A stretch of DNA of 38,341 nucleotides, taken from the NCBI GenBank assembly GCA_016871535.1, contig VHCZ01000030.1, positions 1 to 38,341 of the forward strand, written 5' to 3'. Within the stretch, counting starts at the first letter, position 1, and each line of letters begins with the position of its first letter. This DNA comes from Verrucomicrobiota bacterium. GTDB lineage: Bacteria > Verrucomicrobiota > Verrucomicrobiia > Limisphaerales > SIBE01. This document shows positions 1 through 38,341 of the stretch, one piece after another. The position numbers and the translations under genes are program-made. The notes beneath the pieces were generated by a model that was not told the DNA's origin, made no database searches, and saw only the letters and a list, made by a program, of their open reading frames with translations.

Positions 1-1
1 G

Positions 2-90
2 GGCGATTTCGCTTTCTGGCTTCGTTTCTCCTCAGTCACAGAGCCCTGGCTATGCTCCTTCGTCGTGCCTCGCCAGAAAGCGAAATCGCC
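2..90. repeat. Fold-back element, copy 1 (conserved core, private arms)
   Basis: Perfect 19-bp inverted arms (2-20 and 72-90, left arm ggcgatttcgctttctggc) enclose a core of about 50 bp. The core, from TGGCTTCGTT near 17 to CCTCGCCA near 75, recurs at 27811-27873. There it is enclosed by completely different arms that are also perfectly complementary. It sits about 50 bp upstream of the start codon at 140. It could be a mobile palindrome or a structured transcript. The left edge is at the window border, so it may extend further. Confidence 0.75.
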
Positions 91-139
91 TCCAGCAAAA
101 CCGGAATTTATTTTTGCACAAACCCTAAGGGGAGAGATC

Positions 140-10290: not shown

Positions 10291-10395
10291 CTCCTACTCC
10301 TAATCTTACTCCTAATCCTGCTCGTAATCCTAATCTTAATCCTACTCACGCACCCAATGGACTTCGGAGAGAGGGCAGGATTAGAAGTAAGATTA
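10291..10395. repeat. TAATCC-type tract with inverted partner
   Basis: 10291-10348 is a degenerate tract of 6-bp units (ctaatc, ctcctaatc and variants). Its segment 10301-10320 is the reverse complement of 10376-10395 (caggattagaagtaagatta) with one mismatch in 20. The transcript could form a long AU-containing hairpin between the DUF58 stop and the BatA start, which might separate expression of the two halves of the operon. That role is inference; the pairing is visible. Confidence 0.75.
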
Positions 10396-12421: not shown

Positions 12422-12730
12422 AGTGTCGGGTTAGTGAACGGGACGCTGGCAAGGCTGGTCAACAATAGACTTTTGAATTCCGCAAGCGCGCTCCCAGTCC
12501 GCAACGAATAGGCCGACGCGCTCGGCGGTTAACGTAGGGCAGGCTTCCAGCCGGCCTCCTCGGATGCGGTGCGTTTTCGTCCGCTCGCGCTGTGGCGCTC
12601 GCTGGGCAGGCAGGATGCCTGCCCTACGTTGCTGCCGGTCCATCCGGGTCCATCCGAGGTTAGAGTCTGTTTTCTGCTGCATAGAGATGGCTCACGTGTT
12701 ACAGAGAACGTGATCCCAAATGGACGCTGA
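12422..12730. other. Divergent intergenic region
   Basis: This region separates the MoxR operon (leftward) from the broken DUF1549 gene (rightward) and should hold both promoters. It contains a 100-bp element with perfect ends (12531-12630). A TCCATCCGGG/TCCATCCGAG direct repeat lies at 12638-12657. No coding sequence or clear sigma-70 promoter was recognised. Confidence 0.6.
12531..12630. repeat. 100-bp palindromic element with perfect 14-bp ends
   Basis: The left end AACGTAGGGCAGGC (12531-12544) is the exact reverse complement of the right end GCCTGCCCTACGTT (12617-12630). The interior contains further GC-rich inverted sequence. It belongs with 7997-8074 and 38187-38270, which share the TAGGGC terminal motif. 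It is too short to encode a transposase. Confidence 0.8.
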
Positions 12731-15629: not shown

Positions 15630-17945
15630 TCATAAGCCAGGCAGCGCGAAGGCCAGGATGGAATCGCCATATTTCGTCCCGAGCTTGCCGCCGCCGCCGG
15701 CCGCGATGGCGACGTATTGTTTGCCGTTGATTTGGTAAGTGCTGGGCGTGGCGTAACCGCCGGCGGGAAGTTTGTATTCCCACAAAACCTTGCCCGTGTA
15801 TTTGTCGAAGGCGCGGATTTTCTCATCGGGCGTCGCGGCGATGAAGATAATGCCTCCCGCCGTCAGAATCGGTCCGCCAAAGTTCTTTGCGCCGGTGTTG
15901 CGAATGCCTTTGGCCGCGAGCCGGGGATACTCTCCGAGCGGTACTTTCCACAGGATTTCGCCTTTGTTGAGATCAACCGCGTTGAGCGTTCCCCAGGGCG
16001 GCGAGATGGCTGGAGCGCCGTAAGGATCCTCGAAGAACGGCGCAATCTGGGCGTAACGTCCTTTTGAACCCACCGAAGCCACATCTTGCGCGTCTTCGGC
16101 GTTGCTTTCGAGGTAAGCGAGAAGATCGTCCAGTTGCGCGGGGGTAAAGTGGTCGAACGACGGCATGATTCCGCGCCCGTAGCGAAGCACGGTTCGGATC
16201 TCCTCGGACTTGAGGCGCAGGCGAACGTCGCTCAATGGAGGATAGAGCGGCGGGTTGCCCTGGCGATTGAAACCGTGGCACGGAGTGCAGGTCGTGTTGT
16301 AGATCATTGCGCCTCGCTGAACGGGCGTGGCGGTGGCCAGGTCAAGTTCGGCCAGCGGTTTCAACCGATTGATCGTGGGCGCTTCGTTCGCGTTCACGTA
16401 AAGAACGCCCGTGGCCGGATCAAATGCGCCGCCACCCCATTCGACGCCGCCCTGGTGGCCCGGAGTCGTGATGGTGCCGCGGAGCGATGCCGGAGTGTAA
16501 AGGAAACCCGTTTCATGCTGCTTGAACTGCTCCAGCGCGGAGGCGCGCGATTCGGGCGTGACGTTGGTGAGGTCGGCCTCGAACGTGGCCAACCGAACGA
16601 GCGGCGGCGGTTTCGAGGGAAACGGTTGAGTCGGCCAGGCTTCTTCGCCAGGCACTTTGGAAACGGGAACGGGACGCTCTTCGACCGGAAACACCGGTTG
16701 GCCCGTGTCACGATCCAACACGAAAGTGAGGCCCATCTTGGTGAGTTGGACGGCGACGTCGCGGCGTTTGCCGTCGATGTGGACGGTGGCCAGAATGGGA
16801 GCGGGAGGGTTGTCGTAATCCCAAATGTCGTGGTGGACCGTCTGATAATGCCACTGGCGGCGGCCCGTTTTGGCATCGAGCGCCAGGACGCAATTGGCGA
16901 AAAGATTCATACCTTTGCGCGTGCCGCCGTAGATGAAATCTCCCGCACCACAGCCTGTGGCACAGAACACCCAGCCGCGTTGTTCATCGAGGGAAAAGCC
17001 GCCCCAAGGATTCGCGCCGCCGTAGGTCTCGCCTTCCTGCCATTGCCAGGTGTCGTATCCGAACTCGCCCTTGAGCGGAACGGTGTGAAAAATCCATTCG
17101 AAGGCGCCGGTCTCTGCGTTGTAAGCGCGAACATCTCCGGGCGTGGAATCGTTTTCCTCCGGCACGCGGGAGCCGACAATCAGGAGGTTGCGGTAAATGA
17201 TGCCCGGGGCGGTGACTTCGATCGACGCTCTGGCCGGGTCCACGGGCAGGTTCTTTCGCAAATCGATGAAGCCGCCTTCGCCGAACGATTCAATGAGCGC
17301 GCCGGTTTTCGCGTCGATGGCATAGACGCGGTCCTTGACGAAATTGAAGATGCGCCGTTTCTCGCGCCGGGCGTCCTCCCAATAAACTACGCCGCGATTG
17401 CGCCCGCGGAAAACGCGGTTCCCGGCATTGTATCTGGCCGATTCGAAAATCCACACCTCTTTGCCAGTGGCTGCATCCAGAGCGACGGCGTTGACCTTCG
17501 GCGTGGTGAAATAGAGCAAGCCATCGATCACGATCGGATTGCTGTACATGGAAGGCCCGTTGGGATCGCCGTGCCGGTATTCCCAGGCGACCTGGAGGCG
17601 ATGCGCGTTCGTGGAATTGATTTGGGACAGTGTGGAATACTGGTTGGCCTTTTTGTCGCCCTGGTAGATCGCCCAATCGGCATAGTTATCGAACCGGTCT
17701 CGCCATTCGCCGTTAGGCGCAGCGGCGAGGCAGGCGGAATCAGAAAGGAGAACAAAGGCCGTCAAGAACAGCGCTACCGAACTGAGAGCCTGTCCTGAGA
17801 GCGTGTTTTGAAAATCGTCGCAACGTACCGCGGCTCTCTTCTTCAAATCCGAAATCCGAAATCCGAAATCCGAAATACTCAGAGCCTCGTTACCTCGGTT
17901 GCTACAAGCAGTGGTGATTCTCAAAACACGCCCTGAGCGGATCAT
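15630..17945 (-). CDS. PQQ-dependent dehydrogenase with inserted cytochrome c domain
   Basis: This is an eight-bladed quinoprotein propeller of the glucose/alcohol dehydrogenase type. It has W-motif blades (YAIDAKTGALIESFGEGGFI, VLALDAKTGRRQW, IRAFDKYTGKVLWEYKLP) and HHDIWDYDNPPAP. A cytochrome c domain is inserted late in the chain (CTPCHGFNRQG near residue 553, with GIMPSFDHFTPAQLDDLLAY as the probable Met-ligand loop). The protein oxidises a sugar or alcohol in the periplasm and passes electrons to the heme. The start is uncertain. The first ATG compatible with the neighbouring remnant is at 17945, but residues about 3-46 are translated from a palindromic repeat (17796-17936). The true signal peptide (ALSSVALFLTAFVLLSDSACLAA) lies after it, with no ATG or GTG between. 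The longer frame to 18272 runs antisense to a prepilin tail and is rejected. Confidence 0.8.
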   Translation of the reverse strand: MIRSGRVLRITTACSNRGNEALSISDFGFRISDLKKRAAVRCDDFQNTLSGQALSSVALFLTAFVLLSDSACLAAAPNGEWRDRFDNYADWAIYQGDKKANQYSTLSQINSTNAHRLQVAWEYRHGDPNGPSMYSNPIVIDGLLYFTTPKVNAVALDAATGKEVWIFESARYNAGNRVFRGRNRGVVYWEDARREKRRIFNFVKDRVYAIDAKTGALIESFGEGGFIDLRKNLPVDPARASIEVTAPGIIYRNLLIVGSRVPEENDSTPGDVRAYNAETGAFEWIFHTVPLKGEFGYDTWQWQEGETYGGANPWGGFSLDEQRGWVFCATGCGAGDFIYGGTRKGMNLFANCVLALDAKTGRRQWHYQTVHHDIWDYDNPPAPILATVHIDGKRRDVAVQLTKMGLTFVLDRDTGQPVFPVEERPVPVSKVPGEEAWPTQPFPSKPPPLVRLATFEADLTNVTPESRASALEQFKQHETGFLYTPASLRGTITTPGHQGGVEWGGGAFDPATGVLYVNANEAPTINRLKPLAELDLATATPVQRGAMIYNTTCTPCHGFNRQGNPPLYPPLSDVRLRLKSEEIRTVLRYGRGIMPSFDHFTPAQLDDLLAYLESNAEDAQDVASVGSKGRYAQIAPFFEDPYGAPAISPPWGTLNAVDLNKGEILWKVPLGEYPRLAAKGIRNTGAKNFGGPILTAGGIIFIAATPDEKIRAFDKYTGKVLWEYKLPAGGYATPSTYQINGKQYVAIAAGGGGKLGTKYGDSILAFALPGL
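17796..17936. repeat. Palindromic element with internal CCGAAATC tandem repeats
   Basis: The ends tgagagcgtgttttgaaaatc-like (17796-17816) and gattctcaaaacacgccct (17916-17934) are complementary with a few mismatches. Weaker pairing continues inward (gtcgcaacg..ggctct with agagcctcgttacctcgg). The centre (17845-17877) is a tandem array of the 8-bp unit atccgaaa. The AGAGCGTGT end resembles the ends of the element at 27649-27923. The whole element is translated in frame as the N-terminus of the neighbouring dehydrogenase ORF. Confidence 0.7.
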
Positions 17946-18266: not shown

Positions 18267-18670
18267 AACCATGCGGAGCGCAGCCTTCGGGAACGAGCCG
18301 ATGAGTTCATGGTTCTGGAACTCCAGCCGGGATCTCTGCCGCGCGAGGGCGGACTCGTCAGGTACGGTCCTGAGTTCGATCAGTGGAAGGCCGAACCATT
18401 GGATTAACCGCGAATCGACGAATGAACGACAATCCTTGCACGCTTCACTCCAAAACGAACCCTTCGGGAGCGCGAGCGCTTCTCCCTCACTTTAATCTTC
18501 TCTCGCCGGGAAAGGAGCGCGGGCAGCCGCGCCCGTGTGTTTCCGAGGAATCCGGACAGAAAACCTCTCGCGGGCAGGCTGCCCGCGCTCCTTCTTGAAT
18601 CAGCCGTGAGACGCACCGGGGTGTCCCCGTTTGCGCCTTGCTCCGGGCTCAGACCGGGTTAAGGTGAGCG
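18267..18670. other. Intergenic region with repeat and weak coding remnant
   Basis: A 45-codon plus-strand frame directly after the prepilin stop (to 18404) reads plausibly at its end (LVRYGPEFDQWKAEPLD) but has no suitable start, so it may be another gene tail. An 82-bp palindromic element follows at 18512-18593. The promoter of the thioredoxin-fold gene should lie near 18594-18670. No clear motif was seen. Confidence 0.45.
18512..18593. repeat. 82-bp palindromic element with perfect 17-bp ends
   Basis: The left end AAGGAGCGCGGGCAGCC (18512-18528) is the exact reverse complement of 18577-18593. A half copy starting with the same AAGGAGCGCGGGCAGC is at 21449-21474. The size is similar to the TAGGGC-ended elements, but the terminal sequence differs. 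Confidence 0.8.
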
Positions 18671-22077: not shown

Positions 22078-22215
22078 TGGGGAGCGCACGCGCCCTCGCG
22101 TGCTGTGGTCCGCGCCCTCGCCGACCACACCACTCGCAAGAGCGGTCACCCTTTGGTGACTGAATTTCTACAACGGGGCGCCGGTCGATACACGCGAGGG
22201 CGCGTATGCTCCCCA
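22078..22215. repeat. Multi-hairpin element, copy 2
   Basis: 25-bp terminal inverted repeats (22078-22102 and 22191-22215) match at 23 of 25 positions; the left end starts TGGGGAGCGCACGCGCC. Inside are a hairpin (tgtggtccgcg/cgccgaccaca, loop CCCT, near 22104-22129) and a GTCACC-CTTT-GGTGAC hairpin near 22145-22160. A decayed fourth stem lies at CGCCGGTCG. It is homologous to 14834-14982. Confidence 0.85.
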
Positions 22216-25820: not shown

Positions 25821-25979
25821 TTAACACCCCGCTTGCGCGGGGGGGGGGCCGAAACAGCGTCCAGGTGGAAAACCGTTTCAACGGTTGGCGGCGCGCCGGG
25901 TCTCTCCCCGAGGAGGAAACCGTTCAAACGACTCCCCTGTGGCTCGACCGGCGTTCACCCCGCTGAAGCGGGGTGTTAA
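25821..25979. repeat. 159-bp element with TTAACACCCCGCTT ends
   Basis: 22-bp terminal inverted repeats (25821-25842 and 25958-25979) match at 20 of 22 positions. Each end is itself a small palindrome (CCCCGCTGAAGCGGGG on the right). It sits between the PQQ/heme gene and the NDK-like gene, which is transcribed in the same direction. It includes an A/G-rich core and a run of ten G. It may end the upstream transcript, since the stems are strong, but no U-tract is obvious. Confidence 0.8.
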
Positions 25980-27640: not shown

Positions 27641-27648
27641 CTTAGCTT

Positions 27649-27923
27649 AGAGCGTGTCCGAAAATTCCGCGGGGTCCTGCGGCGAGGGATTTTGGCTGTG
27701 GCCAAGGCGGCGAGGTCCGAGCATCCCCAACGCGGGCTGTAAGGACCGAGCCAACGCAGGCCACGGACAAAAGACCCGCCGCCCGGAGGGTTTTCGCGCC
27801 AAAGGCCGCCTGGCTTCGTTGCTCCTCAGTCGAAGATCCAGGGAGGATATTCTCCTTCGTTGCGCCTCGCCATCCGGCCTTTGGCGCGAAAACAGGACCC
27901 CGCGCAATTTTCGGACACGCTCT
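27649..27923. repeat. 275-bp element with 31-bp terminal inverted repeats
   Basis: The left end (27649-27679, starting AGAGCGTGTCCGAAAATT) and the right end (27893-27923) are complementary at 30 of 31 positions. TTAGAG occurs at both outer edges (27647-27652 and 27923-27928), which may be a target duplication. The interior holds two large hairpins: one with arms near 27681-27703 and 27761-27785, the other the fold-back core at 27791-27892. It is too short for a transposase, so it would be a MITE-like passenger or a structured RNA gene. Confidence 0.85.
27791..27892. repeat. Fold-back element, copy 2 (conserved core, private arms)
   Basis: Perfect 18-bp arms (ttttcgcgccaaaggccg at 27791-27808 and its reverse complement at 27875-27892) enclose the core 27811-27873. 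The core shares TGGCTTCGTT, CTCCTCAGTC, CTCCTTCGT and GCCTCGCCA with 17-75. The arms share nothing with those of copy 1. The element is nested inside 27649-27923. Confidence 0.8.
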
Positions 27924-27950
27924 TAGAGACCGGCCCCTCTGAAAAGGCGC

Positions 27951-38168: not shown

Positions 38169-38341
38169 ACTTCCCATGAACCAGACGGTAGGGCGAGCTT
38201 GTCCCCAGCGAGCTGAGTCGGACGTGTTCCACGCATGTCGAGCGGCTCGCCGGGACGGACTCGCCCTACCAGCGACGGGTTCATGGGCTGCGAGCCTGGG
38301 TCTGAAACCAAGGGAACTTCCCATGAACCAGACGGTAGGGC
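38169..38341. repeat. 26-bp direct repeat with 147-bp period
   Basis: acttcccatgaaccagacgg followed by tagggc occurs at 38169-38194 and again at 38316-38341, where the window ends. Between the copies lies the palindromic element 38187-38270. A tandem array of this unit may continue past the window edge. Confidence 0.8.
38187..38270. repeat. 84-bp palindromic element with GGTAGGGCGAG ends
   Basis: The left end GGTAGGGCGAG (38187-38197) is the exact reverse complement of CTCGCCCTACC (38260-38270). It shares the TAGGGC terminal motif with 12531-12630 and 7997-8074 and has a similar size, so the three probably form one family. A second copy appears to begin at the window end (38334 onward). Confidence 0.75.

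Follow-up and report, generated by a model that had tools for sequence, protein, structure and literature searches.

Two fold-back elements in the window, i.e., the whole stretch of 38,341 nucleotides of Verrucomicrobiota DNA analysed here (contig 30 of a 6.67-Mb, 460-contig genome, G000), raise the question of what kind of element combines a common core with arms that pair and yet differ in sequence from one copy to the other. Both fold-backs exist as the initial annotation described them. In the first, the arms (2-20/72-90) are 19 nt long and 100% complementary. In the second (arms 27790-27814/27869-27893), the claim of perfect pairing holds for 19 pairs; these are followed by a mismatch and then by TGGC/GCCA, which is common to both fold-backs, so that complementarity is 92% over the 25 nt including this short mismatch. 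Apart from TGGC/GCCA, the arm sequences of the two fold-backs are indeed unrelated, and the window contains exactly two occurrences of each half of the common core, where shuffled sequence would give 0.00-0.02.

Both fold-backs are the inner parts of larger elements. The one at 27791-27892 is nested in a longer inverted repeat (27646-27679/27893-27926) and constitutes half of a 273-bp MITE, whereas the element holding the fold-back at 2-90 is incomplete because the contig begins at window base 1. A third, diverged copy of the module, which the initial annotation had missed, lies at 27684-27778 on the plus strand. In the modules at 1-91 and 27795-27888, the minus strand is the structured one. 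The features are the following, with bit scores from the covariance models R1 and R2.

1-125, minus strand: truncated family-B MITE, made of module 2 (1-91) and the right terminal inverted repeat (TIR), ...TTATTTTTGCACAAACCC; R1, 93 bits
126-128: TAA, candidate right target-site duplication (TSD) of the truncated family-B copy, whose left side lies beyond the contig
27647-27649: TTA, left TSD of the family-A MITE, read from the sequence
27650-27922: complete family-A MITE, 273 bp, in the order TIR, module 1 (plus), 16-bp linker, module 2 (minus), TIR
27650-27679, plus strand: left TIR, 30 bp, GAGCGTGTCCGAAAATT..., also present at the end of the genome's IS5-family IS
27684-27778, plus strand: module 1; R1, 52.4 bits, E 2.8e-11; R2, 68.7 bits
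27779-27794: 16-bp linker between the two convergent modules
27795-27888, minus strand: module 2, the second of the fold-backs; R1, 92.4 bits, E 1.4e-21
27893-27922, minus strand: right TIR of the family-A MITE, from the inverted-repeat search
27923-27925: TTA, right TSD of the family-A MITE, read from the sequence

A genome-wide search with the core pattern gave 140 exact matches, which are not independent because nearly all of them are recent copies of two families. Every family-A copy examined with both ends (45/45) is 273 bp long with the TIR GAGCGTGTCCGAAAATT..., and identical 3-bp TNA duplications flank 39 of these 45. Ten of the 11 family-B copies with both ends measure 270 bp (TIR GGGTCTGTGCAAAAATAA...), the TNA duplication being identical in 10/11. 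The same untrimmed arm pair was found at different sites in 50 of the 60 family-A copies examined, the remaining ten being mostly truncated at contig ends or chimeric, and one of two nearly identical arm pairs was found, again at different sites, in 18 of 25 family-B copies. A third family (loci L177 and L191) has different ends and different arms. The initial annotation had proposed a core-only search of the genome and had named conserved arms as the adverse outcome; arms are in fact conserved within a family here, yet across families they are unrelated and still pair. Likewise, its remark that ordinary transposon ends are conserved is true but was applied to the wrong sequences, as the arms do not form the ends of the element; its true TIRs lie outside them and are conserved per family.

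These data bear directly on the proposal that the core itself is mobile, inserting and making an inverted copy of the adjacent target by template switching. A common core with different arms, as in the two window copies, speaks for this proposal. However, the same arm pair recurs at different sites in most copies of both families, the flanks differ in every copy, and the duplications lie at the outer TIRs instead of the core, the inserted unit being the entire MITE of 270-273 bp between its TNA duplications. Since the arms are identical at each site while the flanks differ and the duplications are outermost, the arms move together with the element and do not derive from the target. The proposal is refuted for these families and retains practically no credibility. 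Instead, the elements are short, non-coding and bounded by TIRs of about 30 bp (for the 273-bp and 270-bp families), with TSDs among the IS5 types (TNA, YTAR, TA), and the ends of other families show CTAG or TNA. This identifies the carriers as IS5-type MITEs, i.e., non-autonomous DDE transposons of a known kind.

Family A also shares its ends with an autonomous element. An IS5-family IS of the same genome (L062:1435-2383) ends in GAGCCTGTCCGAAAAAT/GAGCCTGTCCGAAAATT, encodes a transposase matching NF033580 (E 2.8e-67) and contains no module. The partner IS of family B was not found, so that the sharing of ends with an autonomous IS5 element concerns family A only. A profile search of all loci revealed no transposase between the ends of a module-bearing element and no autonomous IS containing the module; as this profile was made from one IS5 transposase, divergent transposases were possibly missed. 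Its matches were confined to the L062 IS and to a fragment of an IS next to one MITE (L005 and duplicate loci), where an IS5 transposase remnant (L005:1763-2104) adjoins a family-A MITE, apparently at a common insertion site, TAA. The window also holds a natural module-free control, a 135-bp MITE-like element (17799-17933) with a related end, GAGCGTGTTTTGAAAATC, and TGA duplications at 17796-17798 and 17934-17936. Furthermore, many contigs of this genome start or end inside these MITEs, e.g., the window at its base 1, C56, C63, C80, C105, C129, C134, C184, C216 and C232. Hence, the repeats break up the assembly and leave copies truncated, which explains many contig breaks in such assemblies.

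The module is a single long hairpin on one strand. Its outer stem, P1, is variable, about 20 bp long and free in sequence. Inward of P1 follow a GA/GNN loop (GA/GAA on the minus strand of the fold-backs first described), a G-C pair, a GC/AA loop, GC-GC, a tandem-GA loop and P2, and then a tandem-GA loop, P3 and the apical loop. P2 comprises 5 bp, or 1+2 bp around a second tandem-GA. In module 1 (27684-27778), which was recovered by a covariance model whose input included no module from that family-A position, the loops are the same and P2 is a plain 5-bp helix, GGTCC/GGACC. Across modules, loop sequences are conserved and stems vary with compensation. The MITEs hold either one module or two convergent ones; in the Verrucomicrobiota set, the two-module elements are convergent in 28/28 cases, with a gap of 15-17 bp.

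Base-pair compensation was quantified in sets of increasing breadth. Among 14 seed modules, 25 of the 36 pairs changed on both sides, and the observed scores were reached by none of 500 shuffles. With 86 modules, drawn from the window, its order, other Verrucomicrobiota and the one Myxococcales module, 34/36 base pairs covary and 83.2% of cells are paired, versus 55.0% after shuffling and 31-41% when the partners were slid. In the phylum to which G533 belongs (a Myxococcales-labelled MAG, L080), 31 of 36 pairs covary in 30 modules, all but one of which were independent of model building, and 34/36 in 109 modules; covariance-model alignments, on which these figures rest, lean towards the model. 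Compensation in most helices thus exceeds both the shuffled and the slid controls, which is the comparative definition of a structured RNA motif. Arms of different clusters are only 0.31-0.34 identical, against 0.74-0.77 for the unpaired core columns, and pair at 0.80-0.85 with their own partner versus 0.40-0.43 with the partners of other clusters. This is further illustrated by G533, where one isolated core pair is C-G in 25 copies and G-C in 20, next to a GA/AG loop that is invariant in 46/46 modules. Because the loops remain constant while the arms may be any sequence that pairs, the single-stranded fold appears to be selected. The alternative put forward in the initial annotation, namely that the module is a structured RNA or DNA in which the stem may have any sequence as long as it pairs, thereby finds strong support across MITE families and two phyla.

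The mismatches point in the same direction. In P1, they number 65 G-U versus 23 A-C and 64 G-A versus 3 C-U in the second phylum, and 52 versus 22 and 72 versus 5, respectively, in Verrucomicrobiota (A4 set), although single-stranded DNA, too, tolerates G-T and G-A better than the opposite mismatches. In both phyla, G-U is the most frequent state at the base of P3. Such strand asymmetry is unexpected for a double-stranded function and therefore indicates one strand folding alone. Judging from these comparisons, selection appears to maintain a fold of the single strand, probably as RNA.

Could the same pattern have arisen passively, the module being the old interior of a MITE homogenised between families by recombination and gene conversion, with arm pairing as a by-product of hairpin repair? 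Recombination inside the core does occur. Three chimeras (L175 on contig C79 of G000, L011 and L016) join a family-B left half to a family-A right half within the core, and L191 combines family-C ends with a family-B core. These chimeras show how a conserved core could plausibly gain new ends. However, in L175 and L016, the two whose arms allow comparison, the arm sequences are unmatched, and such hybrids are rare. Moreover, conversion cannot explain conservation in two phyla, compensation in nearly every helix, the flips of a core pair between near-identical copies, or the strand-asymmetric mismatches. A passive origin is accordingly improbable.

Folding simulations were then compared between RNA and DNA parameters. 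With RNA parameters, the minimum-energy fold equals the comparative structure in the three window modules and in L034 (z from -5.4 to -9.4), module 2 (27795-27888) reaching -53.2 kcal/mol (z -7.0), and the complementary strand of the modules adopts a different, weaker fold. With DNA parameters, which may undervalue tandem GA, the comparative fold was missed in two of three modules, and only the family-A module 1 kept the consensus core. The success of the RNA fold together with the failure of the DNA parameters favours RNA.

The orientation of the copies was also considered. Single-module copies show no bias relative to flanking genes (among tandem genes, 10 sense and 14 antisense, p 0.54), a result that rests on crude ORF calls and 47 usable cases, 43 of 100 being unusable because a reading frame runs through. 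The absence of bias weakens any model that relies on sense RNA within host mRNAs. It is compatible with the module acting as single-stranded DNA, in which case the strand exposed during replication or transposition would fold and be recognised by the transposase, SSB or another factor, the recognised hairpin raising transposition or setting its timing. The confinement of the module to MITEs with IS5-type ends would also fit, the strand asymmetry is expected for single-stranded DNA too, and two convergent modules would offer one hairpin per strand. Against this stand the autonomous IS5 element with the same ends and the module-free MITE with similar ends in the same window, both of which do without the module, as well as the failure of DNA minimum folds to recover the comparative fold in two of the three modules. 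In addition, no replication-strand bias was visible, the 11 copies being split between the lagging-strand template (5) and the leading-strand one (6), in a small sample from two single-contig genomes with dnaA taken as the origin. Altogether, we consider a role as single-stranded DNA unlikely, while granting it appreciable weight.

Regarding the RNA class, no module in the window or the loci matched Rfam 15 at gathering score, the only matches being tRNAs that lie outside the module in two loci. When three modules were scanned permissively, only chance-level matches appeared, far below cut-offs; in L209 and L034, these were mostly microRNA precursors, on both strands. A self-cleaving ribozyme or another catalytic RNA belonging to the MITE would be consistent with the lack of any matching Rfam family, and conserved internal loops with free helices are the usual look of small ribozymes and aptamers. 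Nevertheless, the module contains no known ribozyme core, and symmetrical tandem-GA loops are usually structural or protein-binding. A catalytic function is therefore very improbable.

The fold-backs are copies of one module borne by IS5-type MITEs. The explanation that accounts best for this module, and to which we give slightly better than even chances, is that it is a structured RNA, most likely acting in read-through transcripts. The MITE moves as a unit, presumably via the IS5-family transposases whose ends it shares, and the module and the terminal repeats are combined differently in different families. Where transcription reads through the MITE, the sense module would fold, and its tandem-GA ladder might be bound by a host protein or shield the transcript. 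Insertions could then be better tolerated, or the transcript more stable, so that MITEs keeping the fold would persist. With two convergent modules, a transcript in either direction would have one correctly folding copy. More tentatively, and with somewhat less than even confidence, we propose that this is a new RNA class, defined by a tandem-GA ladder and free stems, forming a selfish core shared by MITEs of different bacterial phyla. This RNA core, as the conserved entity, would have been repeatedly re-housed between IS5-type terminal repeats, partly by recombination inside it.

The module is found inside dozens of different MITEs in at least two bacterial phyla. Since at most 14-22 candidates per genome were scored in the large covariance-model scans, the genome counts are lower bounds. 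A first model detected it in at least 24 of 289 genomes of the Verrucomicrobiota sample. With covariance models, it was detected in at least 95 of 245 genomes (at least 59 of 115 genera) of the order to which the window belongs and in at least 62 of 189 genomes of the phylum of G533, which itself has 94 matches. The loci examined in detail displayed more than 20 different terminal repeats and mostly TNA or CTAG-like targets, which are typical of IS5 groups. Searches of viral contigs with three exact patterns gave 0 matches, and distant blastn against plasmids and phages gave none.

The interiors of MITEs are commonly regarded as meaningless, and the elements themselves as passive remnants. In the present case, an interior structure is kept in about 39% of the sampled genomes of the order and in one third of the sample of the second phylum. 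As the fold is kept while ends and arms change, something must recognise it. The module thus offers a testable entry to the persistence of non-autonomous elements, and a new candidate RNA (or single-stranded DNA) family absent from Rfam 15.

A survey of open-access literature on MITEs, Verrucomicrobia, Myxococcus and RNA, from which subscription journals may differ, disclosed no earlier description, and the literal sequence of the module had only unrelated chance matches there. The elements resemble IS5-family MITEs in being shorter than 300 bp, without transposase, high in copy number, flanked by TNA or CTAG duplications, and sharing TIRs with an IS5-family IS of the same genome. They differ from them in having a conserved structured interior common to many families with unrelated ends, whereas the interior of a typical MITE consists of IS remnants or of unrelated filler. 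As far as tested, a shared structured interior with exchangeable ends is new.

Other hairpin-bearing repeats offer further parallels. The Correia/NEMIS elements of Neisseria are also MITEs; their transcripts form hairpins, and RNase III cuts Correia-containing transcripts at the TIRs (PMC10969869). In those elements the hairpin is formed by the TIRs themselves, while that of the module is internal, with tandem-GA loops and arms independent of the TIRs. The BOX elements of Streptococcus pneumoniae are mobile repeats with structured, possibly regulatory RNA (PMC10969869). Unlike them, the module occurs in another phylum and matches no Rfam family at gathering score. REPINs and REP sequences share with the module two inverted hairpin units placed close together and present in many copies. 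REP units are short, carry a GTAG-type head, are associated with RAYT HUH transposases and lack target duplication, whereas the module elements have DDE-type TIRs and TSDs, and a REPIN/RAYT identity was rejected on these grounds. An integron attC site, whose GTT...AAC core sites pair across the hairpin, was likewise rejected, as the conserved AAC stands opposite GGC in an internal loop, not GTT.

Two minor observations concern hairpins beyond the module. At six second-phylum loci (L147, L149, L150, L209, L211 and L220), P1 is bordered immediately outside by GGACCGAG and, at its opposite flank, by CTCCCGTC, perhaps as a further tandem-GA loop at the stem base. Six other long inverted repeats of the window, with spacers of 46-97 nt (22078-22215, 25821-25979, 12531-12630, 10301-10395, 18512-18593 and 38187-38270), did not match the module models and are probably other hairpin or MITE families.
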